Of a DNA stretch of 35,870 nt, positions 2,641 to 35,484 are shown piece by piece. A model generated the notes under the pieces. That model had not been told where the DNA came from. It did not search any database and saw only the letters and a list, made by a program, of their open reading frames with translations. The position numbers and the translations under genes are program-made. The number at the start of each line of letters is the position of its first letter. Positions within the stretch are counted from its first letter, which is position 1. The stretch lies in IMG/VR virus record IMGVR_UViG_3300024517_000051, positions 1 to 35,870 of that record. One strand, written 5' to 3'. This DNA comes from a virus.

Positions 2641-3666
2641 ATGGGACTAGAATACAAATTACGATCACAGCTCAAGCTGAACTATAAGCTTTTCGTGGAC
2701 ATGCACATGCTCCGTGAAGGAGCGTTTACGACTATTGCTTCTGGATCACAGTTCTACGATGGTCGTTCATTAAGTCTATTGCTGCCAGATACATCAGCAG
2801 ATAACACTCTGTTTGGAGTAAGTGACGGCCAAATATGGCAGTCGCCATACAGGCAATGGGTGTACGAGTCTGGTGTTCCTATCGATGGAACCAATATCGT
2901 TGCTCCTCCTATAGTTGCATCGGGCCTATATATTGAAGGTGCATTCCGTAGTAAGGATGATACTGAGTTTGGTCATACGATTGACTTTATCAATGGTAGA
3001 ATCATCTTTAACACCCCACAGTCTTTGGACCTTCAGGTCCATGGTGAGTTCTCTGCACGAGAAGTAAGGGTTGGTTTCGAGCATGATTTCAATCAGCAGT
3101 TTACTGGCAACGTTCTTGAGACGCAGTATTCTACCAACCCACTGACTTCAATGCAGTTGGTTTACCCTTCTGGCAAACTACAGACTTTTCCAGCTATCTT
3201 TATCGAAGTAGACGGCAGAACAATGGAAGGTTACGAACTAGGTAATCGTAGTGCTATTGTTGAAGACGAAGTAAAGTTCCACATCTGGGCATTGGATGAT
3301 CTGACACGAGATAACATTGTTGACATTCTGACCGGACAGTGGCGTAAGTCAGTTCCTATGGTAAACTTTAATCAGGTGCCATTACCGTTGTCTGGAATTC
3401 ACAACACCTTATCTCCTGAATACGTAGCATACCAAGACATGCTGCACAATACGACGCTGGTGACTACTGTGGGGTCTGGTACCCCTATTCAGTTTATGTC
3501 TTACATTAATGATGTAGATACCCAGAACTTGCCAGCTACAGAAGAATATGAAAGAGCATTAGTGACTTTCCGCGTCGGAGTCTATTTGAACGCTCCTGTT
3601 ACCCCCCTTGGACAGATTTTTGGCCCCATTTCCACGTTACCAACGATCCAGGATTCGGGCCTCTAA
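2641..3666 (+). CDS. Virion structural protein, neck/tail-completion position
   Basis: This 341-residue, beta-rich protein without recognisable catalytic motifs is the last gene before the major tail protein, the slot usually occupied by neck or tail-terminator proteins. It has a polar N-terminus (MGLEYKLRSQLKLNYKLF), then alternating short strands and Gly/Ser/Asp turns. Residues about 185-250 (FIEVDGRTMEGYELGNRSAI, then DEVKFHIWALDDLTRDNIVD) look like a compact alpha/beta domain that could bind a ring partner. It is much longer than typical tail terminators (about 130-200 residues). Its start is only two bases after the previous stop and lacks a strong Shine-Dalgarno site, which suggests translational coupling. 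Specific function unknown. Confidence 0.6.
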   Translation: MGLEYKLRSQLKLNYKLFVDMHMLREGAFTTIASGSQFYDGRSLSLLLPDTSADNTLFGVSDGQIWQSPYRQWVYESGVPIDGTNIVAPPIVASGLYIEGAFRSKDDTEFGHTIDFINGRIIFNTPQSLDLQVHGEFSAREVRVGFEHDFNQQFTGNVLETQYSTNPLTSMQLVYPSGKLQTFPAIFIEVDGRTMEGYELGNRSAIVEDEVKFHIWALDDLTRDNIVDILTGQWRKSVPMVNFNQVPLPLSGIHNTLSPEYVAYQDMLHNTTLVTTVGSGTPIQFMSYINDVDTQNLPATEEYERALVTFRVGVYLNAPVTPLGQIFGPISTLPTIQDSGL

Positions 3667-3761: not shown

Positions 3762-5171
3762 ATGGTTAACAATAACAGAGTCTTTTGGGCCATTGAACAA
3801 GTGGCCATTAAAGATAACTCCGCTCCCCCTACTGGGGCAGTAGCGGCTCGTAACTCGCGAGAGTTCATTACGGGTTCGCTCGCATCTGGAGTTGATGAGG
3901 TTGGAGGTCTATGGGAAGTACCCCGTGGTCTTCAAAGTATCGGCATGAGCACAACTTTCAACCTGGAACAAGTCTTCCAGCTTGGTCAGGTTGAGCTTTA
4001 TGAATATTCGGAACGTCAGCCTGACGTAGAGGTCACACTATCGAAAGCTATCGATGGTACGAAGCCTCTATTCTTCATGATTACTGACCCGACGCAAGCC
4101 AACGATATTGTTGCTCGTACGAACAACTATCGCGTTGATATTGCATTGGAAATCTACCCTGACTCGCAGTTCCGTGCTACTGGCAAGCCGCAGTCGATTG
4201 TGACTGCATCCGGTATGTACGTGTCTAACTTGTCGTACACCTACCCGATTGACGGCTTCGTTAGCGAAGACGTTACTCTTGTTGGTAACGATAAGATCTG
4301 GGGTGCCACGGTCGCTGTATCTGGTACTGCCGGAAACAACAACGGCAATGGTGGAGAACCAGTCCTTATCTGGCCTGACGATCAAGATGGCGGTAACCCT
4401 AATGCCCCCGAAGGTACTCCTTCTGGTGTGTTCGGTCACGACGGCAACACTTCTGCTCTTGAAGAAGGTGGTGCTCAGGAACTTGCAGCCGGTACAGATC
4501 GCTTCGGTGTTCTGATCGTTGGCTCTGGTATCCAGCGTCGTGAAGAGATTGACATCCGTCGTTCGGTTCTGCCGAGTGATATTCCTGGTATCATTAGTCC
4601 AGTTTCGTCTGGTATCGATGGTGCTTATGTGAATGGTGGTCAAGGTGCCCAAGGGCCTGGAACGCTACTAAACACTGATCAACTCGTGGTCGATGCTAAC
4701 ACTGATTACATCGCTGAACACGTTCAGACAATTACGGTATCGTTCTCGATTGCCCGTGATGACATTTTCGAGCTTGGTTCGAAACGTCCGTTCGTCAAAG
4801 TGCCCGCATTCCCTCTAGAGGCTACGGCTTCCATTGAGGTGATCACGGCTCAAGGTGACTTGGTAGACGCTAGATCTGATATCGACTGTGGTCCTGATAA
4901 CACGTCTGAGTCTAACACGATTATTCTTCGTACGTGTGACGGTCTCCAGGTTGACCTGGGTGACTCGAACCGTCTGACGAGTGTTGAGCTTGGTGGTGGT
5001 GATGCCGGTGGTGATAACATGACCGTGACATACAACTACAGTTCTTTCAACACGTTCAACGTGTCTCACGACTTCTTCCAGCCGAACCACCGTGTGTTGG
5101 TTTTCGAAACTGGTAACAGTCGTTTCAACGTGGGTGCTCCGAGCTTCCTGCGTTCTGATTTGGGTATCTAA
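3762..5171 (+). CDS. Major tail protein, probably two fused tube domains
   Basis: This 469-residue protein is preceded by a promoter-like motif and the strong site GGGAGG, and followed by a stable hairpin, as expected for the most abundant tail component. Residues 57-97 read LQSIGMSTTFNLEQVFQLGQ, then an acidic turn and PDVEVTLS, a pattern of tail-tube beta-sandwiches. Residues 321-360 repeat it: VQTITVSFSIARDDIFELGS, then a turn and ASIEVI. Each copy is followed by a second strand set (YVSNLSYTYPIDGF; MTVTYNYSSFNTFNV). A Gly/Asn/Asp-rich linker (about 188-245) separates them. T5 pb6, of similar length, has such a duplication and builds trimeric pseudo-hexameric rings; I infer the same here. 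The duplication is read by eye; a structure prediction would settle it. Confidence 0.75.
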   Translation: MVNNNRVFWAIEQVAIKDNSAPPTGAVAARNSREFITGSLASGVDEVGGLWEVPRGLQSIGMSTTFNLEQVFQLGQVELYEYSERQPDVEVTLSKAIDGTKPLFFMITDPTQANDIVARTNNYRVDIALEIYPDSQFRATGKPQSIVTASGMYVSNLSYTYPIDGFVSEDVTLVGNDKIWGATVAVSGTAGNNNGNGGEPVLIWPDDQDGGNPNAPEGTPSGVFGHDGNTSALEEGGAQELAAGTDRFGVLIVGSGIQRREEIDIRRSVLPSDIPGIISPVSSGIDGAYVNGGQGAQGPGTLLNTDQLVVDANTDYIAEHVQTITVSFSIARDDIFELGSKRPFVKVPAFPLEATASIEVITAQGDLVDARSDIDCGPDNTSESNTIILRTCDGLQVDLGDSNRLTSVELGGGDAGGDNMTVTYNYSSFNTFNVSHDFFQPNHRVLVFETGNSRFNVGAPSFLRSDLGI

Positions 5172-5217: not shown

Positions 5218-5261
5218 TACTCTCTACTCCCTGGGTGCAAGGTACAATCAGATAATTGATC

Positions 5262-5297
5262 AAAGGGGCACCCGTGTATTCACGCACAGGTGTCCCT
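5262..5297 (+). promoter_or_regulatory. Hairpin over ribosome site upstream of tail-assembly gene
   Basis: AAAGGGG (5262-5268), five bases before a GTG at 5274, is a good ribosome site. Its G residues pair with 5289-5296 (GGGCACC with GGTG-T-CCC, one bulged T). An inner CGTG/CACG stem (5273-5276 with 5281-5284) closes a TATT loop that contains the GTG. The ATG at 5304 lies just beyond the hairpin. The structure could hide the upstream start and tune expression of the next gene. Confidence 0.4.
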
Positions 5298-5303
5298 ATT
5301 ATT

Positions 5304-6500
5304 ATGTCTATTCAAGAAAACATCAACAGATTACTGTGGGACAGGAGACTGATAGTGCTTCCAAAAGACATGGAGGCACCCGAGGGACTGGACTACGTTG
5401 TCCTGAAAGACCTCACGCTAGATGATCGCAACCACTATCTATTCATTCGTGATCTAGAGGAGCACAAGGCCCGCATGGAAGGCGTTCCTACAGAGGGCGA
5501 GATCATGCAGAAGGCCCGTGAGTCTGGTTACTGGACCGCAGACGACGAGGACGTAGACGAGCGTGCAGACGAACACATCGCGTTCCTAGAAGCAGAATTT
5601 AAAGCACGAGCAAAGTTCAAGTCGCGACAGAACATTATCAAGCTTCAAATCAAAGACTCTAAGGCGAAGCAGGACTACGTTAATCAAAAGCGTAACAACC
5701 TTAAGCAGCAGACTTGCGAATACCTCGCACACGAGATCGCATCATTCATGCTCCTAAGGCGGGTGGCTTTGCGTCCAGATGGCACGCCTCTCATGCCTGA
5801 CGATAATACATATCTCAATTTAAAGGAAAACTATCTTCTCCTGGTCTTCTATCTCATTTATGAGATGATGGGAGAAGGTGCGTTAGAGACAGTAGAGATT
5901 CGTGAGATTGCAAGATCAACCGAATGGCGATTGACCTGGGGACTGGCTAGAGAGAACCTGCCCAGTATTTTTGGTCGTACTGTTGGTGACCTTAACATTA
6001 ATCACAAGATGCTCATCTATTGGAGTCGTGTTTACGACTCTGCTTTCGAGTCTGCTGAACCACCCGAGTCGGACATCATTGATGATGACGATCTTTTCGA
6101 TGATTGGTTAGCCACTCGTGATCTTGAGCGTAATGATACCTACAAGAAGAATAGAACATCTGCCGATCATCATCAGGAGCAGGGCCATGTGTTAGATGGT
6201 GAGTACATTGAAAAATGTGTTTGTGGATCGAAAAAGAGAAACATGGGCAAAGGGCTAGGCGAAAAGACGCCGCACGCTGAACACTGCTCATATGGCATAT
6301 GGCGAAGTTTTTCTAAGGAAGAAAAAGAAGAACGTGCTCGTCGTGTATACGGTCGTAACTCTACGACCGTTCGTAAGATTCTTGACTCCGAACAAGATCG
6401 AGTATTGCAAAAGGGAGAGATTGAAGAACAAGATCTCCGTGGCAAGAAGACGCGATCCATGTTGGGTATGTCAACTAACGTAACCTCAGTAAAAAGATGA
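5304..6500 (+). CDS. Tail assembly protein (chaperone position)
   Basis: From ATG 5304 this is 398 residues; in-frame GTG 5274 and TTG 5256 are alternative starts, and the GTG has the better ribosome site. It is strongly helical and charged, with no export signal. The first half contains a long helix-rich module (about 45-150) with GVPTEGEIMQKARESGYWTA followed by an acidic stretch and a Lys/Arg/Gln-rich helical hairpin. The same order recurs in the protein at 7052. The second half has an acidic patch (DSDIIDDDD type), a CxC pair (EKCVCGSKKR) and a distal Cys (HAEHC). The place between tail tube and tape measure is that of tail-assembly chaperones that bind the tape measure. Function is inferred from position; the stop overlaps the next start (ATGA). 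Confidence 0.55.
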   Translation: MSIQENINRLLWDRRLIVLPKDMEAPEGLDYVVLKDLTLDDRNHYLFIRDLEEHKARMEGVPTEGEIMQKARESGYWTADDEDVDERADEHIAFLEAEFKARAKFKSRQNIIKLQIKDSKAKQDYVNQKRNNLKQQTCEYLAHEIASFMLLRRVALRPDGTPLMPDDNTYLNLKENYLLLVFYLIYEMMGEGALETVEIREIARSTEWRLTWGLARENLPSIFGRTVGDLNINHKMLIYWSRVYDSAFESAEPPESDIIDDDDLFDDWLATRDLERNDTYKKNRTSADHHQEQGHVLDGEYIEKCVCGSKKRNMGKGLGEKTPHAEHCSYGIWRSFSKEEKEERARRVYGRNSTTVRKILDSEQDRVLQKGEIEEQDLRGKKTRSMLGMSTNVTSVKR

Positions 6501-7051: not shown

Positions 7052-7834
7052 ATGGTAGAACGTACTTTTAAAGCCGTAGATCGCAATGGTAATGTTTGCG
7101 ATTTCGAGCTAAAGCCCACAACGGTAGGCATCGAGAACGAAGGCGAGCGTCAGTATCGTATTGCGTACAGTAAATCTCTTGCGGAGGGTGTATTCCCACG
7201 CGAGAAGCTTCGTGAGATCATGCGTGAGTTTGGTATGTGGACCGAGCACGACGAAAGCGAACTTAAGAAAACAGTTGGCAAAATTGCACTCCTTCAGATC
7301 GAACTGAAGAACGCGGAGTCTGAGGGCGACACAGACGCCTGTGGTGACATCGCTAAGAAAATTGGTCTTGAACGTAGACGTATGTGGGAGCTGTTCCTGG
7401 TTCAGCAGACGGTTTACATGAACTCGGCAGAAGGTGTTGCCGAAATGATTAAGACTGAAACGGTTATGGCTGCTTGCACAGTGTTAGTTTCTACTGGTAA
7501 ACGCTACTGGTCTGATTATGCTGAGTACGTACGAGAGCGTGATATGAATACCAAATCTACTGTGTATTCTCAAGTAGTAGGATTACAAGCTGGACTACTT
7601 GACGAAGCTCGTCTTGGTCTCTTGAACGAGTACCCTGAGGCCACATATCTCAAGACTCAAGAAGAAGCGATGCTAGATCGTGAAATTGAGGAAGAGGTTT
7701 TGAAGACCCTGCATACTCGTGCAGATAAGGCTATCGCAGCAGACAAGAAGAAAACTAGCAAGAAGAAGGTTAGTAAAAAGAAGAAGGTAAGTCGTGGCAA
7801 GAAACTGGAAACTAAAACTGATTCGACCAAGTGA
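7052..7834 (+). CDS. Tail assembly protein, paralogue-like of the gene at 5304
   Basis: ATG 7052 is chosen over the GTG three bases earlier because AGGAG (7040-7044) is then seven bases away. The 260 residues start with a small beta segment (RTFKAVDRNGNVCDFELKP). A helical module then follows the same order as in the 5304 product: EGVFPREKLREIMREFGMWT, an acidic turn, and a charged helical hairpin. A middle helix bundle (AEMIKTETVMAACTVLVSTG) precedes a Lys-rich tail (repeated KKK/SKKK near 235-255). This resembles chaperone organisation with a flexible basic end. The Lys codons also carry the ribosome site of the next gene. Function is inferred from location. Confidence 0.55.
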   Translation: MVERTFKAVDRNGNVCDFELKPTTVGIENEGERQYRIAYSKSLAEGVFPREKLREIMREFGMWTEHDESELKKTVGKIALLQIELKNAESEGDTDACGDIAKKIGLERRRMWELFLVQQTVYMNSAEGVAEMIKTETVMAACTVLVSTGKRYWSDYAEYVRERDMNTKSTVYSQVVGLQAGLLDEARLGLLNEYPEATYLKTQEEAMLDREIEEEVLKTLHTRADKAIAADKKKTSKKKVSKKKKVSRGKKLETKTDSTK

Positions 7835-8441
7835 ATCCGTTAAGATAGCGGTTAACAAAGGTTGGGCCGATGCCCTTAAAGACCTGGAAACCTGGATGCA
7901 GAGCGATCTGGTTCGGGCTATGGTCTATGGTGGTCTCGGCATCCAGGGTATTGCCCAAACGCCATTTTACAAGTTTGTCTCAAGTCAAGATGGTCTTAGT
8001 CAATTAGGTATTGAAAAGACAGAGCCGCCGAAGTTGTTACGAGCTTATCTAAGTACCATCAAGATTATCCGTAAGAACAATCAAGTCAACATAAAGTTTG
8101 GTGACATGGCACTGTTGAAACTAGCTACGCCTCATCCCGCATCTGGCACAGGTCATCTACAAATTGAGTCTTGGCTAGAATGGGTGTTTGATAAGAAAAA
8201 AGTTGCTAGCGGTTTTGTGCCTCGTAACAGAATGCCTGTTGCAATCCAAAAGAGAATTAGAGTTCAAAGTGCTCCCGGCGGTTTGATGTTATCAAAAGGT
8301 ACTTTTGGTAGCACTGGCTTATGGAGGTTTCCAACTCAGTTGGCAGATTTTGAGGTAAAGTGGTTACGTGAAAACGTTTCTACGATTGAGAAATTAGTTC
8401 AAGAGCGAGCTATTGTTTCACTAACCAAGAGTTTTAAGTAA
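7794..8441 (+). CDS. Hypothetical protein immediately before tape measure
   Basis: GTG 7794 is the start: an in-frame TAA at 7788 rules out anything earlier, and AGAAGG (7782-7787) lies six bases upstream inside the Lys-rich end of the previous gene. The 215-residue product overlaps that gene by 41 bases and touches the tape measure start by one base (TAATG). It has an amphipathic N-terminal part (SESVKIAVNKGWADALKDLE), several strands (TIKIIRKNNQVNIKFGDMAL), and a WLEWVFDKKKVASGFVPRNR segment reminiscent of small tail proteins. It is not recognised. Its location suggests a minor tail or tape-measure-associated role. Confidence 0.65.
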   Translation: MARNWKLKLIRPSESVKIAVNKGWADALKDLETWMQSDLVRAMVYGGLGIQGIAQTPFYKFVSSQDGLSQLGIEKTEPPKLLRAYLSTIKIIRKNNQVNIKFGDMALLKLATPHPASGTGHLQIESWLEWVFDKKKVASGFVPRNRMPVAIQKRIRVQSAPGGLMLSKGTFGSTGLWRFPTQLADFEVKWLRENVSTIEKLVQERAIVSLTKSFK

Positions 8442-11400
8442 TGGCAAAAGTACAATTAGATGCTATACTAAAGCTGGTTGACGTTCAGATCAATCCACAG
8501 GTATTCCGTAAAATCAGCCAAGCTGTTGCGGGACTGCCCCCTTCGTTACAAAAAACAGATACTCATCTTAAGAGTGCAAACAAGAGTGCCCAGGGTCTCA
8601 ATAGAAGTCTCAATAAAACTAAGCAGCAATTAAACGGAAACGAACGTGCTGCCAGATTGTTCTTGCAGCGTATGGCACAGTTTGCTATTCTGTTGCCCAC
8701 GTTCGCCACATTGAACCGTGCCCTACAGGGTAGCGTCAAGTTCTTGTTTGAGTTCGATAGTGCGTTACGAGACATTGTGCGTATTGACGTTGGTGGTCTA
8801 AAAGACCGCATGGAAGAGATTGGAGATGCCGCTCTCAAAACTGCTGTTGATTTTGGAGTCACGGGAACTGAAGTTCTAGGTGTAACCCGTGTTTTCAAGC
8901 AAGCTGGTGATTCGATTGAAGACTCACAAGCTCGTGCTCGTACTGCTATTTTGGCAACGCAAATTTCAACGTTGTCTTCTGCTCAGGCTACCGAAGTTTT
9001 CATTGCGTCTGCTCGTCAGTTTGGTAAGGTTGGAAAAGACTCTGCTGCTGTTCTTGATAAGCTAGCCAAAGTTGAAGACATTGCTGCGGTTAACGCTGGT
9101 GATGTCGCTGATGCGTTCCGTACTGGTGGTAACGCTCTTGCTGAATTTACTGGTAGCATCGATGATTCTATCGGACTGATTGCGGCCCTTAGAGATCAGA
9201 CACGTAAGTCTGGTCGTGAAATTGGTACGTTCTTCAAGACGCTGCAAACACGAGTGTTTGCGGTAGGTGATGCTCGTAGTGCTGTTGAAGGACTAGGAGT
9301 TTCAGTGGAGAATCTTGATGGTAGCTTGCGTCCCACGATGGCGGTCTTGAACGATCTTAAGGCTGCCTTCGATGGTCTTACTCAAGCACAGAGAACCAAC
9401 GCCGCTAAGTCTATTGCTGGTATTCGTCAGTTCGAGGGCTTGATCGCTACGCTTAACTCCTTGGAGAAGGCGAATGAGTTCGCAAAAGAATCTTCTGAGG
9501 CTGCTGGTACCGCCGATGAAAAGCGTGCTATCACTGATGCGAAGCTAGAGCGTCAACTTGGTAAGTTGGTAGCTCAAGGACAATTGCTTGCTGAAGCCAT
9601 GGGTGATGCTGGACTAGAAGACGCCCTATCTAACGTGCTGAGTATTGCCACAAGTATTTTGAAGGTCTTCACTTCAATCACTGATGTTACCGCTGATATC
9701 GGAGGCAACATTACTCCTCTACTAGCGTTAGGTGGTGTGGCTCTTGGTCGTGGAGTATTTGGTCTTGGCGGTAAAGGCGGTGCTGCTGGTGGTGGCGGTG
9801 TCGGTGGTGGTAAAAGCAAGGGACCGATTCCTGGACTTAGTGATAAGTTCATTGGTCCGTTAAATGAGTCACAAAAGTCAATCGTTGGTTTTGGTACGCA
9901 GCTTGGTCGTGCGAAAAACGCTGTTGTCGCTCAAACCCTTGCTGTCAAAGCTTCTGTAACCAAGAGAATGGCTTTACATAGGGGCGAAGAAGCAACCTTC
10001 AAAGCTTCTCAAAGAGCTTTCTTGGATCATACTCGTGCTGTTAGAAGCAACATGAGTGCTATTAAGTCGTCTAGTATGGCTAAGACCAAAGCTGGCGGCG
10101 GACTTGGAGGAGCACTCCAGACCGGCGAAGGAACATTACTGTTGTCTTTGATTGGTACTCAGCTACCCGCTTTGTTCGGGAGTATGTCTGAGGGATTACG
10201 TGATTCAAACAATAACCTTGCTGGATTTAGTGCAGATCTATTAGACGCTAGTAGTAGCGGTCTATCAATGGGTGCTCAATTCCTTATTCTTGGCAAGAAG
10301 GCTGGTGCAGCAGGCTTGATGATTGGTTCACTTACTGCCGCTTATGCAAAACTGAAACCTTATATTGAGGACGAATTTAACGCAAGAGACGAACTGAGTA
10401 AACAGGCCGCAGGTCAAGCGGCAGAGACAGGACTAAGAGCTAAGTTTAGTGGCGATACAGACGCATCTAAAAAAGCGGCAGAACAAGTAGTAGAATCATT
10501 TGCTGTTGCGTTTGGTGCTATCAATGATATGGGCGAAGCTCAAGCGAGTGCGTTCACCGACCTTGCTGGTAAACTCAATGTTGACGAAGCGGTGCTTAAA
10601 GACACTCTGTTAACGAAATCAGCAAACGCTGTTGCACAAGTGGAGCTTTCTCTAGATGGTGTTGCTGGAGCCGCCAAAGACGCAGCAACAGATATTAGTA
10701 ACATTGGTAATCCGCTTCTCATCGCTTCTGACCTTTTTGGAAAATTAAATCTCTCAAGAATGCGAGATAACAATCAAATTATAGCAATGCAGGCTGATCA
10801 AGATGCTGCTATTAGAGACGTTATCAGAAATAGTGCAGATTACATTTTACAACTTGCAGACGAGGGCGACGTAAGAGAAGAGGCGACCGATCTAATCGAA
10901 CAAAGTAACGCAGGAGCCCTAAATGCGGCTCAGGCGTTTAGTAAACTTACAGCCGTTCTGGCTGCTTCTGGTCGTGCCGTCAACGAGGCCACTGGCAAAT
11001 TTGAAGCAGTAGCAATCTCCTTTTCAGAAATTGTTAAACTCAATCAAACCAAAGCATTGGCTGATGAAATTCGTACACTTGGACTAGAGATTGAACTAGC
11101 CAAGCTTGGACCTGATGCGTTGTCAGATTCATTAGTACGTCTTCAGCAAGAATTCCTGCTAACTGAACGCGAGTCTACCAACAACATTAGTAGACTGAAC
11201 GAAGAACTAGTAACGTTGTTTACAGAAATGCCAGGGTTCGCTCAGAAGTCTGCCAATGAAGTATTTGGTGCTATCAACGATGGTATCAGTGTTGATTCAA
11301 GTAAAGTTAAGGCACTTGAAGATCTAATCTTTAATCGTGGCGATCCAGAGACCGGCGAAGGTTTTTCTAAGGTGTCAAGCGAACAAAACGCAGCCATTAA

Positions 11401-13843
11401 GGACTTCCTAAAGAACATCAGGGGTAGACTGTCAGAAGAGAAGAAGATTCTTGATGCGGACAACGCTCAGAAGGGCGAAGCAAGTTCCAGGGCTCGTGAC
11501 TTACTTCAGTCTGAGGCTCAGGCTGCACAGAACGCATTCGAGTCCACTCGCAAGTTTACTGCTGAGCTACAGAAGTTCGGTGATGCCGTAAACACCGATG
11601 TACTTTCTGCTTTTCAAGATATTGGTTTAGGTGATATTGACGAAGTACTTGGTGGTACTTCTGGTCTTGGGGAAGGTATGCAGCAACTTATCATGAGTGC
11701 TTTTGCTGACCCTATCGTTAAGGCTGAGATTGCACTTAAGGCTGCTACTGAAGGCACACAGGCTGAACTGGATGTTTTGGCTAGTCGTCTTGACAACGTT
11801 AATCAAAAGCTATCTGATCAGGCTAATCATGCTGAGTTTGCTGCCTTGACAGCTTCCAAGCTTGCTCTTGAGCTGGAGATGGAACAGGCTGTTCAGAACG
11901 GTGCGGTTGAATCAACACAGCTTAAAGTAAAGATACTTGAAGCTGAACGTGAAGCAGAAGAAGATGCTGCCGAGGCGGCTGCTAAACGAGTTGAGTTACT
12001 GGATAAGCTGGCAGATGCGTCTCGTTCGTTTGATAAAGAACTCAAGGATATCGAACGTTCTTTTGAAGATTTCCAAAAGCAAAAGATTGCTGATCTGCTG
12101 AGCCAAGAGACTGATGCTCGTAGTGAGCTAAAGGATGCTCAGCAAGAAGTTCTATCTACTACTCAGGCTCTTGCCGAAGCATACGATTCCCTACTGAAAG
12201 CTCAACTAGAGTTCAACGGTGCTATTGCTGAAGCAAAAGTAAAGAGCGGACTGTTAGCTCGTGACATTGGAATGTTAACGGGTAGTATCTCTACGTTTAG
12301 TGGATCTCTATCGTCACTGAGTGGTGCGTTTGATAGTGCCCTGAATGACGCTAACATTACGCTAGAAAAGAGAATTTCGCTTGAGCGTCAACTGGCAGAA
12401 GAAACCCTGAGCTTCCTACAGCAAGCTCAAAGTGAAATCGTACAGGCTGGTCTTGGTATCTTCGGACAGACTGGTGGTGAGAACCAAGCTCTTGGTGAAG
12501 GTATCCAGGGACTACAGTTTATTGCCGATCAGCTAGGTGGTTCATTTGAAAGCTTCTTGAACTTGACTCAAGGAGAATTGTCATCCGTAAGTGAAACCCT
12601 ACTTGGTCTTCCGGTAGAGTTCCGTCAGACCATTCTTGATGCCTTGTCGTTCTTGCCTAGCACTGCTGATATCGGTGGCTTCTCTGTTGAGCAATTAACT
12701 CAGGCTATTGGTCAGATTGGTGCGGGTGTTGATCCCGAAGCTGGTCTGCCGTCTATCGAAGAACTAAATGGTCAACAAGTTGAACAACTGACAAAGCTTC
12801 AGGAGCTTGCTCTCCAGGATGCTCAGTTGCAGTTTGCTCAGGTGATTGCAGCACAAGAACAGGTTGCCGCAGCGGAAGAAGCCGCTGAGGCTGCCAAGTT
12901 GCTAGAGGAACGTGCTTCTGAAAACCTGGAAGCTGTACGTGACGCCGTACTAGAAGAGAAGGCGGTCCTGGATCTTGCCAACGATGAACGTCGCGAACTG
13001 ATGGCTGCTGTTGTTGCCGCAGACGACAAGAATACTTTAATGCAAATCGAGAAGGAGGCACAGTTGTTCGCTGAACAGAATGCCGCTTTCCGTGAGGTTG
13101 GAGATATCATCGTACAGGGTATTAGCTCTGCTATTGGTGGTAGGCTTGCTGTCATCGAGGCTGCTGCTGCCGTTGGTGGTGCAGCCAGAGGACATATCCC
13201 GAACTTTGCTGGTGGTAACCTAACACCTAAGGAGGCCGCTGGTCTACTGCGTGCTGGTGCTCGTGAAAAACGTGCTATGCCCGGTGGTGCCGGTCTGGCC
13301 GTTGCCAACACTAGTGAAGCCATCATTCCCATGAACCGTGGATTCATTCCGAACTTTGCCGAAGGCAACAGTGATATCTCTGCTGGCATCTCTGCCATCA
13401 AGAGCATCAACGAAACTGTTGTTGCCGCTATCGCTCGCTCTGTAACAGCCGCCTTGACCGACCTGAACGGCGGTGGTGGTGGAACAGAAGAGTTGCTTGG
13501 AGAAGTTATCAGTCAGCTTAGTAACCTGAATAGTGTCAATGAAGACATTAGTGCTAGCAATAGTACTGTTGCTTCTAACACATCAGATACCGGAACCGGC
13601 GGAACTACAACGGCAACGGCAGCCAGCACAGAAAAGGTTGAGATTGTCTTACAAACGAACCAGAATAACACAGTCAGTATTACTGGCCTAGAGAGCTTGC
13701 GTTCCGAGTTGGAAGTTGCTGTTGCCGATGCAACCGCCAGTCAGGTTGACGAACAGACGACAGCGTTGTTTGAGCAGCTACAGGAAATCATCACTGCACT
13801 ACAGGAACGCGGGATCTTGAGTTCCTTCGGTCAAACGAGGTAA
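8441..13843 (+). CDS. Tape measure protein
   Basis: At 1800 residues this is the largest gene of the window. The Ala/Gln/Glu/Leu-rich helical composition is typical of tape measures. Residues about 70-400 match the conserved N-terminal tape-measure module: GDVADAFRTGGNALAEFTGS, a RDQTRKSGREIGTFFKTL helix and the LDGSLRPTMAVLNDLKAAF pattern. A Gly-rich hinge sits at about 431-465, hydrophobic Ala/Gly helices near 620-640 could insert in the host membrane, and coiled coils are evident at about 1150-1260 and 1450-1525. Two copies of a GxIPNFA motif lie at 1584-1590 and 1634-1640. By the usual 1.5 angstrom per residue rule the tail would be about 270 nm. Starts by TAATG overlap. It sets tail length and guides DNA ejection. 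Confidence 0.95.
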   Translation: MAKVQLDAILKLVDVQINPQVFRKISQAVAGLPPSLQKTDTHLKSANKSAQGLNRSLNKTKQQLNGNERAARLFLQRMAQFAILLPTFATLNRALQGSVKFLFEFDSALRDIVRIDVGGLKDRMEEIGDAALKTAVDFGVTGTEVLGVTRVFKQAGDSIEDSQARARTAILATQISTLSSAQATEVFIASARQFGKVGKDSAAVLDKLAKVEDIAAVNAGDVADAFRTGGNALAEFTGSIDDSIGLIAALRDQTRKSGREIGTFFKTLQTRVFAVGDARSAVEGLGVSVENLDGSLRPTMAVLNDLKAAFDGLTQAQRTNAAKSIAGIRQFEGLIATLNSLEKANEFAKESSEAAGTADEKRAITDAKLERQLGKLVAQGQLLAEAMGDAGLEDALSNVLSIATSILKVFTSITDVTADIGGNITPLLALGGVALGRGVFGLGGKGGAAGGGGVGGGKSKGPIPGLSDKFIGPLNESQKSIVGFGTQLGRAKNAVVAQTLAVKASVTKRMALHRGEEATFKASQRAFLDHTRAVRSNMSAIKSSSMAKTKAGGGLGGALQTGEGTLLLSLIGTQLPALFGSMSEGLRDSNNNLAGFSADLLDASSSGLSMGAQFLILGKKAGAAGLMIGSLTAAYAKLKPYIEDEFNARDELSKQAAGQAAETGLRAKFSGDTDASKKAAEQVVESFAVAFGAINDMGEAQASAFTDLAGKLNVDEAVLKDTLLTKSANAVAQVELSLDGVAGAAKDAATDISNIGNPLLIASDLFGKLNLSRMRDNNQIIAMQADQDAAIRDVIRNSADYILQLADEGDVREEATDLIEQSNAGALNAAQAFSKLTAVLAASGRAVNEATGKFEAVAISFSEIVKLNQTKALADEIRTLGLEIELAKLGPDALSDSLVRLQQEFLLTERESTNNISRLNEELVTLFTEMPGFAQKSANEVFGAINDGISVDSSKVKALEDLIFNRGDPETGEGFSKVSSEQNAAIKDFLKNIRGRLSEEKKILDADNAQKGEASSRARDLLQSEAQAAQNAFESTRKFTAELQKFGDAVNTDVLSAFQDIGLGDIDEVLGGTSGLGEGMQQLIMSAFADPIVKAEIALKAATEGTQAELDVLASRLDNVNQKLSDQANHAEFAALTASKLALELEMEQAVQNGAVESTQLKVKILEAEREAEEDAAEAAAKRVELLDKLADASRSFDKELKDIERSFEDFQKQKIADLLSQETDARSELKDAQQEVLSTTQALAEAYDSLLKAQLEFNGAIAEAKVKSGLLARDIGMLTGSISTFSGSLSSLSGAFDSALNDANITLEKRISLERQLAEETLSFLQQAQSEIVQAGLGIFGQTGGENQALGEGIQGLQFIADQLGGSFESFLNLTQGELSSVSETLLGLPVEFRQTILDALSFLPSTADIGGFSVEQLTQAIGQIGAGVDPEAGLPSIEELNGQQVEQLTKLQELALQDAQLQFAQVIAAQEQVAAAEEAAEAAKLLEERASENLEAVRDAVLEEKAVLDLANDERRELMAAVVAADDKNTLMQIEKEAQLFAEQNAAFREVGDIIVQGISSAIGGRLAVIEAAAAVGGAARGHIPNFAGGNLTPKEAAGLLRAGAREKRAMPGGAGLAVANTSEAIIPMNRGFIPNFAEGNSDISAGISAIKSINETVVAAIARSVTAALTDLNGGGGGTEELLGEVISQLSNLNSVNEDISASNSTVASNTSDTGTGGTTTATAASTEKVEIVLQTNQNNTVSITGLESLRSELEVAVADATASQVDEQTTALFEQLQEIITALQERGILSSFGQTR

Positions 13844-29869: not shown

Positions 29870-31043
29870 GAAACCTGGACTGAACATTGATATCGGGGAG
29901 CAGACGACTCCCACCTTTGGCTTTTTCAAGCAGGAGGTAGAACAAGATGGCGTACAAGCCATGTCGGCAGAGGAGGTTGGTGATCCCAATCCTAATCGTA
30001 GTGGGTCATATAACTTAGACTACGATTTAGCTGTGCCATTTCCTGAGGGGCGTATCACCGAGATCTTCGGTGCAGAGGGAACCTGCAAGACAACGTTGTC
30101 ACTAGAGGTAGCTGGTCGTGCTATCCAGGCTGGCAAGACTGTACTATATGTCAACATGGAGAGAAACCTGAACCTATCTCTTATGCGGACGGTTCGAACG
30201 CTTCGTCCCTATCTTGATATTGCCGTTGAGCACGCAACAGCCCTGGCCGCTGGCAAGAAGTCTCCGCATCCCGAATGTCCCCTATGGATCGTCAATGCTT
30301 CCAATGGTGAGCAGGCTTTTGAAGCAATGCGTAAGTTTGCCGGTATGGTTCCTAACGGAGTGGCCATCCTAGACTCTATCGACGCCGCTCAACCGCAGTC
30401 AGTGATGGCTGGAGAGATCGGTGACTCTACCGTGGGCAAGCTGGCCAAGCTCATGTCTGATGCCATGCGTAAGCTCATCGGTGTGTCTGAGCAAAACAAG
30501 GTCGCCCTCGTGTTCGTCAATCAGATCCGCGATAAGATCACCATGTATGGTGACCCTACGGATACCCCTGGCGGCTATGCTCTTAAGTTCTATGCTTCGC
30601 AGCGTATCCGACTCTTCACGCCCCGCAAGACCGATTGGATCCTGGACTCTGACAAGGAGCGTATCGGCAGCCTAATCAGATACAAGGTAATCAAAAACAA
30701 GGTAGCCCCCGATGGTAACGAAGGTGTGTTCCCTATCCTTTTCAAGAACGGTATTTTCCGCGAGCAGGAACTTGTGACTCAGGCGTGCAACTTTGGTGTC
30801 CTGCGTATGGGTGGCAAAGGTGGCAAGCAAGTCTTCCTGCCTAAGATCGACCGTGACACTGGTGAGTACATTATGGATGGCGAGGAAATCGCCTCCACTT
30901 GTATGAGTCAGTTCAATGCTGCTCGCAGACTCTTGATGGACAGTGTACTATTCAACAAGCTGGACGCAGAAGTACAAAGCTTATTCATTCCTGGTGGACA
31001 TGATCCCATTGAAGATCTAGTAGATGAAATTCAAGACGCTTAA
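29856..31043 (+). CDS. RecA/UvsX-like recombinase with unusual Walker A
   Basis: This 395-residue protein shows the RecA core in order: Walker A GAEGTCKTT at 72-80, the Glu after strand 2 (NMERNL, E102), Walker B VAILDS (169-174, D173), and the L2/NQIR region VNQIRDKITMYGDPTDTPGG (221-240) followed by YALKFYASQRIRL, nearly as in bacterial RecA. The N-terminal 50 residues are polar, and the C-terminus is acidic (HDPIEDLVDEIQDA), again as in RecA. The enzyme would form filaments on single-stranded DNA and drive strand exchange during recombination-dependent replication. The Gly that normally precedes the Walker Lys is Cys77 here (codon TGC at 30084-30086). It overlaps genes on both sides. Confidence 0.93.
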   Translation: MAKRKKPGLNIDIGEQTTPTFGFFKQEVEQDGVQAMSAEEVGDPNPNRSGSYNLDYDLAVPFPEGRITEIFGAEGTCKTTLSLEVAGRAIQAGKTVLYVNMERNLNLSLMRTVRTLRPYLDIAVEHATALAAGKKSPHPECPLWIVNASNGEQAFEAMRKFAGMVPNGVAILDSIDAAQPQSVMAGEIGDSTVGKLAKLMSDAMRKLIGVSEQNKVALVFVNQIRDKITMYGDPTDTPGGYALKFYASQRIRLFTPRKTDWILDSDKERIGSLIRYKVIKNKVAPDGNEGVFPILFKNGIFREQELVTQACNFGVLRMGGKGGKQVFLPKIDRDTGEYIMDGEEIASTCMSQFNAARRLLMDSVLFNKLDAEVQSLFIPGGHDPIEDLVDEIQDA

Positions 31044-31440
31044 TGGCCGCGAGATTCGTATGGAGATTCTACCCGAAAGGTATCCCGTACGGACACGCGA
31101 ACAGTGCAAGTCGGCTGGGCAGTACATGCTCGGTCGCTTGCTACGTAGCATCTATGGTTTTCACGCATTGATTTTGGAAGAGTTTCCTCTACCGGAAGAA
31201 CGACTTTACTTAGATTTTTTCATGCCGCATAACAAACTGGGCTTTGAGTATCAAGGCATACAACACGATAAGTTTGTTAAGCTATTCCACAGTGACAAGA
31301 AAGGGTTTGAAAAATCTAAGGCACGAGACGCCAGAAAGAGACTCTGGTGCGAGACAAACGAAATTACATTAATCGAAGTACGTGGTAACGTGTCTGTCGA
31401 AGAACTACAAAAACTAATCGAAGAAGCACGAAATGAGTAA
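31024..31440 (+). CDS. Vsr-like PD-(D/E)XK nuclease
   Basis: This 138-residue protein starts inside the recombinase end (20-base overlap). The core RLYLDFFMPHNKLGFEYQG (about 60-78) gives D64 and E75-x-Q77, followed by H81, a Lys/Arg-rich helix (EKSKARDARKRLWCETN, about 96-112) and the strand ITLIEVRG. This is the pattern of small nucleases of the Vsr/DUF559-like branch of the restriction-endonuclease fold. The expected final catalytic Lys is Gln77 in this reading, as in some members. ATG 31060 is an alternative start. Placed between recombinase and helicase, it probably cuts branched, mismatched or end DNA; the exact substrate is unknown. Confidence 0.75.
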   Translation: MKFKTLNGREIRMEILPERYPVRTREQCKSAGQYMLGRLLRSIYGFHALILEEFPLPEERLYLDFFMPHNKLGFEYQGIQHDKFVKLFHSDKKGFEKSKARDARKRLWCETNEITLIEVRGNVSVEELQKLIEEARNE

Positions 31441-33938: not shown

Positions 33939-34897
33939 AACTCAAGTCCATTTCACCCTCACGCATCAAAACTTTTGAGATGTGTAAGTTTAAGTATTGG
34001 TTAACGTACAATACCGATCTTGCACTTAAGACCAACTGGGGTGCTTGTCATGGTTCTCTTATCCATGATGTTTTGGAGCAGTATTCCAATGGTAGTGATC
34101 CAGACTGGGTAGCCAGACTGTATCGTGGTTATGGTGGAGTACTAGAAACGCTAGATCGTTACCAGAAGCCAGAGGTCATGGAAAGCCCATTGGTATGGGC
34201 TAAAGAAAAAGACTACGCCAACAAGAGACCGCTGTGTGACACATGTCCTTACGCTTCAAAAGAAGATAACACATGTAGCATTTCGCAAAAGCCCCTAGAC
34301 GCATTGCCGGGTTGTCCTCGCGATCTGTTTGATGGATCAATCAAGATGTGCGAGACACAGATTGAGCGTTACAAAGACATGTGGGATAAGACCCTGCGGA
34401 ACCCAGAAGGGGAAGTAGTTGGGTACGAGTATGGCTATAGGATTAACATTCCTGGTACAGACGTTCCGATTATTGGTTACATGGACCTTGTGATCGAAGA
34501 AGACCCCGAAACCATCCATGTGATTGACTACAAGACCGGCACATGGACACAAGACTACTTGCAGTGTCGTGAAGACATTCAAGTGAAGATGTATTCCCTT
34601 GCTTCTCGTCGTGAGTTCATTGACGACATTAGTAACAAGGGTTACAATTACAAGAACGTGATCTTGACGTTTGACTACTTCACTAAGAATCCTATCACTG
34701 TAGCATTTACAGAAGAAGAGGATCTAGCGACAGAAGAATGGGTTAAGAACAAGGTAAAAGAGATCGAGTCTACTGCTTATATCGACCGTATCGTTAGAGA
34801 CAACAGTGACTTTGAAAAGAGGTGGGCTTGGAAGTGTCGTTCGTTATGCGACACTGGCGTTTGTTCTAGTCAATGGAATGGGAAGTTTAAAACATAA
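33932..34897 (+). CDS. Cas4/RecB-like PD-(D/E)XK exonuclease with extra cysteines
   Basis: The 321 residues carry the RecB-family nuclease core: SPSRIKTFEMCKFKYWLTY (C18), GSLIHDVLEQY (H45), IGYMDLVIEE (D185), VIDYKTG (D199-x-K201), and a later QVKMYSLASRR helix. The C-terminal CRSLCDTGVC (C302, C306, C311) with C18 can hold an iron-sulfur cluster, as in Cas4/AddB-type enzymes. An insertion (about 100-128) adds CDTC, C115 and C128, a possible second metal site. The protein would resect DNA ends in replication or recombination. There is no CRISPR array or other cas gene, so the CRISPR name is only for the family. Confidence 0.88.
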   Translation: MLKLKSISPSRIKTFEMCKFKYWLTYNTDLALKTNWGACHGSLIHDVLEQYSNGSDPDWVARLYRGYGGVLETLDRYQKPEVMESPLVWAKEKDYANKRPLCDTCPYASKEDNTCSISQKPLDALPGCPRDLFDGSIKMCETQIERYKDMWDKTLRNPEGEVVGYEYGYRINIPGTDVPIIGYMDLVIEEDPETIHVIDYKTGTWTQDYLQCREDIQVKMYSLASRREFIDDISNKGYNYKNVILTFDYFTKNPITVAFTEEEDLATEEWVKNKVKEIESTAYIDRIVRDNSDFEKRWAWKCRSLCDTGVCSSQWNGKFKT

Positions 34898-35484
34898 TGA
34901 GAGCACGTATTGGTAAAGATTGGATTGATGCATATTTTGACTATGGTGTAGACCGTACCAATAGACGTATCTTTATGTTTGATGGTGTTGACGAAACATC
35001 TATTGGTACAGTTATTAAGGGTCTGTATTACATGAATGCAGAGTCAACGGAAAAGCCTATTGAACTATTCATTGGTTCATTTGGTGGTAGCGAGTACGAA
35101 ATGTATGCATTGTACGACGTGATCGGTACTCTTCAGGCACCAGTACATATTACTGCTATTGGCAAATGTATGAGTGCTGCACCATTGTTGGTTGCTCGTG
35201 GCGAACCAGGACATAGATACGCTACTCCAAACACTTGGTTCATGGTCCATCAGTCGTGGGACGAGTTTGGCATGAAGCGTACGGATGAACTAAAAAAGGA
35301 CTTAGTTCATTATGATGCAATGGCAAAGAGTTGGTATGCTCTTATGGAAAAGCACACCAGCCAAAAGGCCACGTTCTGGAAGAAGCATTGCGAACAGGTT
35401 GGTGACAAATACTTTAGTTCTGAGCAGGCCCTAGAGTGGGGTATCATTGATCACATTTGGGATCAGAAAGACGGAGAAGAGTAA
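34897..35484 (+). CDS. ClpP-like serine protease
   Basis: The 195 residues follow ClpP closely: RRIFMFDGVDETSIGTVIKG, PIELFIGSFGGSEYEMYALY (oxyanion Gly pair; the NSPGG of ClpP is GSFGG), a Ser in GKCMSAAPLLVARG (S93), His in FMVHQS (H118) and the Asp before YFSS (D170, GDKYFSSEQALEWGIIDHIW). All three catalytic positions are present, and the length equals bacterial ClpP. It may form a barrel and degrade host or phage proteins, or work with a host Clp ATPase. A capsid-maturation role is less likely because it sits among replication genes, though ClpP-like prohead proteases exist. Linked by TAATG overlaps on both sides. Confidence 0.9.
   Translation: MRARIGKDWIDAYFDYGVDRTNRRIFMFDGVDETSIGTVIKGLYYMNAESTEKPIELFIGSFGGSEYEMYALYDVIGTLQAPVHITAIGKCMSAAPLLVARGEPGHRYATPNTWFMVHQSWDEFGMKRTDELKKDLVHYDAMAKSWYALMEKHTSQKATFWKKHCEQVGDKYFSSEQALEWGIIDHIWDQKDGEE

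Follow-up and report, generated by a model that had tools for sequence, protein, structure and literature searches.

A viral gene for a very probable tail-tube subunit with two fused tube domains

How does a virus build the tube of its tail when the major tail protein appears to contain the same domain twice? This question is raised by a gene at positions 3762-5171 of the window, by which we mean the whole 35,870-base stretch of virus DNA analysed here. The open reading frame begins with ATG, is preceded by a good ribosome-binding site (GGGAGG), and encodes 469 residues that an earlier note on this DNA had read as an internally duplicated tail protein. We conclude that its product is very probably a subunit of the tail tube in which two tube domains are fused, with the following parts:

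3762..5171, + strand: two-domain tail tube (major tail) protein gene, 469 aa (very probable; open reading frame, translation, predicted fold, relatives)
3918..4307, + strand: tube domain 1, residues 53-182 (predicted strands)
3930..4052, + strand: copy 1 of the repeat segment picked in the earlier note, residues 57-97 (profile match, predicted fold)
4308..4523, + strand: variable Gly/Asn-rich insert, residues 183-254 (length table, low pLDDT)
4524..4595, + strand: conserved core of the inter-domain region, residues 255-278 (alignment of 86 members)
4596..4712, + strand: second variable stretch, residues 279-317 (length table)
4713..5072, + strand: tube domain 2, residues 318-437 (predicted strands)
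4722..4841, + strand: copy 2 of the repeat segment picked in the earlier note, residues 321-360 (profile match, predicted fold)
5073..5168, + strand: C-terminal extension, residues 438-469 (predicted fold, length table)

The window protein itself had no matches in Pfam, PHROGs or PDB sequences, and a PDB search with a sequence profile returned unrelated matches alone (E 0.39 or worse). Relatives were found in viral contigs, where successive scans with the family gave 17 loci, then 35, and, once the alignment had been widened, 398 relatives, the best 80 of which were retained. A scan of a genome collection added three, one of them on a contig of 158 kb from a Hydrogenophaga bin. The proteins from 118 of the 119 loci are 332-472 aa long; the exception (L013, 241 aa) begins at a contig end. 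An alignment of 86 non-redundant family proteins (A3) was used for the analyses below.

AlphaFold2 run on A3 produced a model (pLDDT 76.9, pTM 0.80) with two tube domains. An N-terminal strand (residues 12-18) is followed by domain 1 (strands 57-65, 68-72, 79-84, 88-96, 125-131, 145-161, 168-175 and 177-182, with pLDDT mostly 80-96) and by domain 2 (strands 320-329, 332-336, 343-348, 353-362, 388-391, 395-398, 403-411, 420-429 and 433-436), the order of strands being identical in residues 57-182 and 320-436. The low-confidence stretches of the model lie within residues 191-253 and 286-303. Prediction of the monomer structure, a check named in the earlier note, thus yielded two tube domains and not one.

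Comparison of the model with known structures led to the same kind of protein. The top nine Foldseek matches, 293-466 aa long, are all tail chains of SH-Ab15497, T5, DT57C and P74-26, the best of them, aligned over both halves, being the SH-Ab15497 chain 8XAN (E 5.8e-11), a major tail protein according to its PDB title. In VIA-align, P74-26 gp93 (8ED0) ranked first (Z 19.2, 291 residues, 3.5 A, model residues 8-439 against chain residues 2-347), followed by 8XAN (Z 17.7) and T5 (9INY, Z 16.8), with almost the whole length matched; HFTV1 (9FKB, chain BA) scored Z 8.6. The one-domain tube proteins listed reached at most Z 7.4 and were confined to residues 1-254. In BFVD, 107 matches were obtained at E 0.001 or better, many of them from uncultured phages, so this fold is common among predicted viral proteins.

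The window sequence by itself is thin evidence for a duplication. When residues 1-182 were aligned with the rest of the protein, the Smith-Waterman score was 38, which 37 of 200 shuffles reached, and hhalign on single sequences did no better at finding an internal repeat. The two segments that the earlier note had paired (residues 57-97 and 321-360), both of which are present in the protein as quoted, were equalled by 7 of 2000 shuffles, although they had been preselected for likeness; aligned by themselves, their best local alignment is off the register given in that note, whereas the alignment of the two halves, insignificant as it is, does place the hairpins in it.

The signal becomes clear in the family. 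No shuffle out of 200 was as good as the real half-against-half alignment in 34 of the 86 members, and at most ten were in 70 (best Z 9.0); in the best-scoring member the hairpins of the two halves again align in the register proposed earlier. The family profile of the N-terminal half matched that of the C-terminal half with an hhalign probability of 92.9% (score 44.8, 38 columns), compared to scores of 15.1 for the reversed profile and 20.4 for the top of 60 column shuffles, and a profile of the middle region matched neither half. The evidence for duplication therefore rests on the protein family, not on the window sequence alone; on that basis the duplication is confirmed, and the profile alignment reproduces the pairing of the two segments. 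The confident sequence correspondence covers the first hairpin, the part most alike between the two copies. As for the claim that the following strands correspond as well, their parallel order in the predicted structure bears it out, but in sequence they can be aligned only loosely.

These results also bear on a reading in which only the first half is a tube domain, the second being another, decorative beta-sandwich, and the rings are hexamers of the whole protein. Such an arrangement would fit the restriction of one-domain tube proteins to the first half of the model and the insignificant repeat signal in the window protein. It is nevertheless extremely unlikely, given that the profile of the C-terminal half matches that of the N-terminal half, that two-domain tube proteins align across both halves, and that the strands follow the same order in each.

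The genes around the tube gene indicate what it is part of:

2641..3666, + strand: tail terminator, directly upstream of the tube gene (AlphaFold2, VIA-align, synteny)
5256..6500, + strand: conserved downstream gene, start uncertain (ATG at 5304), with a relative in 87 of 119 loci
8441..13843, + strand: tape measure protein, 1800 aa (phrog_4211 E 3e-40, PF10145 E 5.1e-20)

The model of the upstream product (pTM 0.78) aligned best with the phiCD508 neck (VIA-align Z 13.0) and with the T5 terminator p142 (Z 12.7), while in Foldseek it reached only weak E-values (1.1e-3 at best). A relative of this gene occurs in 115 of 119 loci. Its fold also carries an insertion of roughly 150 residues (about residues 26-183), lying between the first helix and the sheet. 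Downstream of the tube gene come the conserved gene, which probably encodes a tail assembly chaperone, judging solely by its position, then small genes and the tape measure gene. The reading frame just ahead of the latter (7794-8441) opens at 7791, has GTG as its sole start and shares 41 bases with the preceding one, which is read in a different frame; translation there may thus involve a frameshift or a weak restart.

The tube gene thus sits between tail terminator and tape measure. Neither of the sheath families PF04984 and PF17482 was found in the 22 relatives of 151-183 kb (0/22 each), while each was detected in 3 of 14 control genomes. This layout, with no sheath in the relatives, is that of a long non-contractile tail of the siphovirus type. 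A contractile tail in which the upstream gene would encode a small sheath was ruled out by the terminator fold together with the negative sheath searches.

Gene position is likewise informative about whether the protein could be a duplicated trimeric component of the tail tip or hub, such as T5 p140 or the hubs of myophages. Hub and spike proteins also have two tube-like domains, linked in another way, as far as the available text of PMC5717097 describes them, and a T5 tail-tip chain (9ioz_A) has the same fold as our model (Z 15.2). Yet the gene directly follows the terminator and precedes the tape measure, unlike the tip or baseplate module, which comes after the tape measure; tube proteins outrank tip proteins in VIA-align; and 107 of 109 records, all picked for carrying the gene, have it once, with no second full-length member to serve as the tube. 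We therefore hold a tip or hub role to be highly unlikely. The two remaining records encode a second, shorter full-length paralog (G059:C1:15832-16770, with two internal stops, and G061:C1:21222-22163). A tube protein of two domains in a long non-contractile tail, three chains of which would close a pseudo-hexameric ring, is by our assessment the strongly favoured reading.

T5, phiCbK and P74-26 have been cited as phages with threefold tubes (in the accessible parts of PMC8718954, PMC10034513 and PMC5717097), and that of T5 is termed pseudo-hexameric and attributed to duplication and fusion (in the text available from PMC5717097 and PMC8718954). The earlier note had called the window's tube T5-like. 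For the kind of protein, a duplicated tube domain, the fold, the family profile and the location of the gene all support this, and rings of the pb6 kind (T5 and DT57C) are, in the known case, threefold and pseudo-hexameric; but P74-26 is the closer match (Z 19.2 versus 16.8). Moreover, pb6 ends in an Ig-like domain, which is absent from the window protein, where merely 32 residues follow the second tube domain and form no sandwich in the AlphaFold2 model (3-32 residues across the 86 members). An Ig-like domain is missing from some T5-like tube proteins, according to the portion of PMC5717097 at hand, and gp93 is likewise described without Ig domains in the available text of PMC10034513. The agreement in length with pb6, offered earlier as a sign of kinship, proved a coincidence and carries no meaning, because the surplus of pb6 over the roughly 374 residues of its tube domains is the C-terminal Ig domain (as given in the accessible part of PMC8718954), whereas here it lies in loops that surround and connect the domains, and the shortest relatives have 332 aa.

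Like the window protein, gp93 of the Thermus phage P74-26 has two tube domains per chain. With 348 aa it is near the short members of the family (332-347 aa) and does not have the long insert of the window protein; identity in the structural alignment is 9%, and the P74-26 genome measures 83 kb. The SH-Ab15497 major tail protein (306 aa) is 10% identical; a literature search turned up no paper on the structure of this tail. No direct sequence link to pb6 or gp93 emerged from hhalign (0.1% and 0.3%, respectively). Ten PHROG families were matched among the 86 members, phrog_3575, to which pb6 belongs, not being one of them; it was not matched by the window protein either. The gp93 family, phrog_290, was matched by one member of 86 (L109, residues 133-267 against 142-257, E 2.8e-5), with no match for the window protein and none in 22 related genomes at E 0.1, a search in which P74-26 itself was positive.

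Whether the fusion was shared with these phages or happened separately can be approached through the same comparisons. In a variant of our reading, the family's fusion would be independent of, and younger than, those of T5 and P74-26, and threefold tubes would have been reached separately. The repeat is legible in the sequences of the family, whereas in pb6 and gp93 it is not (153 and 82 of 200 shuffles, respectively, did as well), nor do the half-profiles of either protein match each other; and the halves of the family match one another better than any half from T5 or P74-26, cross-family half profiles remaining unmatched. Slower divergence would give the same picture, however, and the alignments for pb6 and gp93 have little depth. 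In addition, the L109 match, although found in 1 of 86 members, spans the fusion junction and for that reason suggests shared descent with gp93. An independent fusion is thus possible but doubtful.

The region between the domains has 135 residues (183-317) in the window protein, compared to 52-137 (median 74) in the 86 members. The earlier note had described a long Gly/Asn-rich linker at residues 188-245; this covers only the first variable part of a larger region that contains a conserved core. This first insert has 72 aa here (range 14-74, median 29), and is followed by the core of about 24 residues, in which R260, P271 and G276 are invariant, and by the second variable stretch of 39 aa (range 7-45, median 15). 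The region reaches at least 126 residues in 17 of 86 members. A concerted lengthening of loops in both copies was considered and rejected: the raw correlation of 0.74 shrank to 0.20 once phylogenetic contrasts were used and nearly vanished without three of them, and the expansion therefore belongs to one clade, the window's own and its nearest relatives. An equivalence between the N-terminal strand and the linker core was also unsupported (score 6.9, probability 0.4). The inter-domain region and the loops are probably a flexible decoration on the outer surface.

Proteins of this tube kind are already known; the sequence family found here is not clearly described by a PHROG, Pfam or cultured-phage record. 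Five members, including the window protein, had no match in 50,697 phage records, and a literature search, in which the family, having no name, could not be sought by name, yielded no paper on it. A further PHROG, phrog_985 (141 aa, 'virion structural protein'), was weakly matched by 19 of the 86 members (E 1.1e-4 at best) over a short stretch that, where seen, is the first hairpin of domain 1, and not matched by the window protein; it could be a one-domain relative.

A search of 109 virus records (22, 50 and 37, picked for the gene) with the A3 profile recovered the full protein in all of them and had no match whatsoever in T5 and P74-26. It also uncovered six short pieces of the tube protein elsewhere in 5 of the 109 records, inside unrelated proteins:

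L157:1498-2076, tube-protein piece
L158:2030-2635, - strand, tube-protein piece
L159:1579-2295, - strand, tube-protein piece
L160:1448-1549, tube-protein piece
L161:1387-1662, tube-protein piece
L162:1666-1944, tube-protein piece

Three correspond to the domain 2 hairpin (in G019, E 5e-15; G020, 4e-13; G094, 9e-9) and three to the end of domain 1 (in G020, 8.5e-7; G055, 6.8e-5, with an internal stop; G063, 0.01). Both parts are among the best conserved of the tube protein, which biases their detection. In G019 the piece is N-terminal in a MazG protein (PF03819 E 2.6e-9), and an identical one occurs in the contigs L163 and L164; by contrast, 78 other MazG relatives, among the matches listed, align from residue 80 on only. 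The other carriers are a protein with a Tat-like start and small reading frames, and both carriers in G020 are almost unique. Compared as DNA, the pieces either share short stretches of about 71-86% identity with tube genes already known or gave no match, and the differences concentrate at third codon positions (for example 14, 10, 28), which fits constraint on the protein and equally capture from an unsampled tube gene. The idea that the two kinds of piece, inter-ring hairpin and domain 1 end, are portable modules that dock their carriers onto tube rings is improbable; if true, docked carriers could act as a cap, an assembly brake or a cargo tag.

Elsewhere in the window, a homing-endonuclease-like gene (31024-31440, phrog_9084 E 2.9e-14) is flanked by RecA-like and DnaB-like genes, and a gene for a ClpP-type protease (34897-35484, PF00574 E 3.5e-32) lies at the end of the record. 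Over the open reading frames of the window, the dipeptide Ser-Gly is 1.76 times as frequent as expected (145 found) and Gly-Ser 0.92 times; the Ser-Gly ratio is 1.67 in distant relatives, 1.32 in close relatives, 1.22 in T5 and 1.52 in P74-26.

As the family profile and the predicted fold show, one chain contains two tube beta-sandwich domains that stem from an old duplication and fusion. By analogy with P74-26 and T5, a ring of six pseudo-equivalent domains would be closed by three such chains, and rings would stack around the tape measure protein, with the long hairpin of every domain docked into sockets on the following ring. Nearly all inter-ring contacts in P74-26 are made by Loop1 and Loop2, as stated in the available part of PMC10034513, and the turn regions 66-87 of copy 1 and 330-352 of copy 2 are the likely counterparts of such inter-ring loops. 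Viral contigs contain at least 398 stretches that code for related proteins, many of them within records measuring 150-183 kb, which makes fused tubes look widespread in uncultured phages. Since the repeat can still be read in its sequences, the family would be suited to dating the fusion and to testing single versus multiple origins of threefold tubes.
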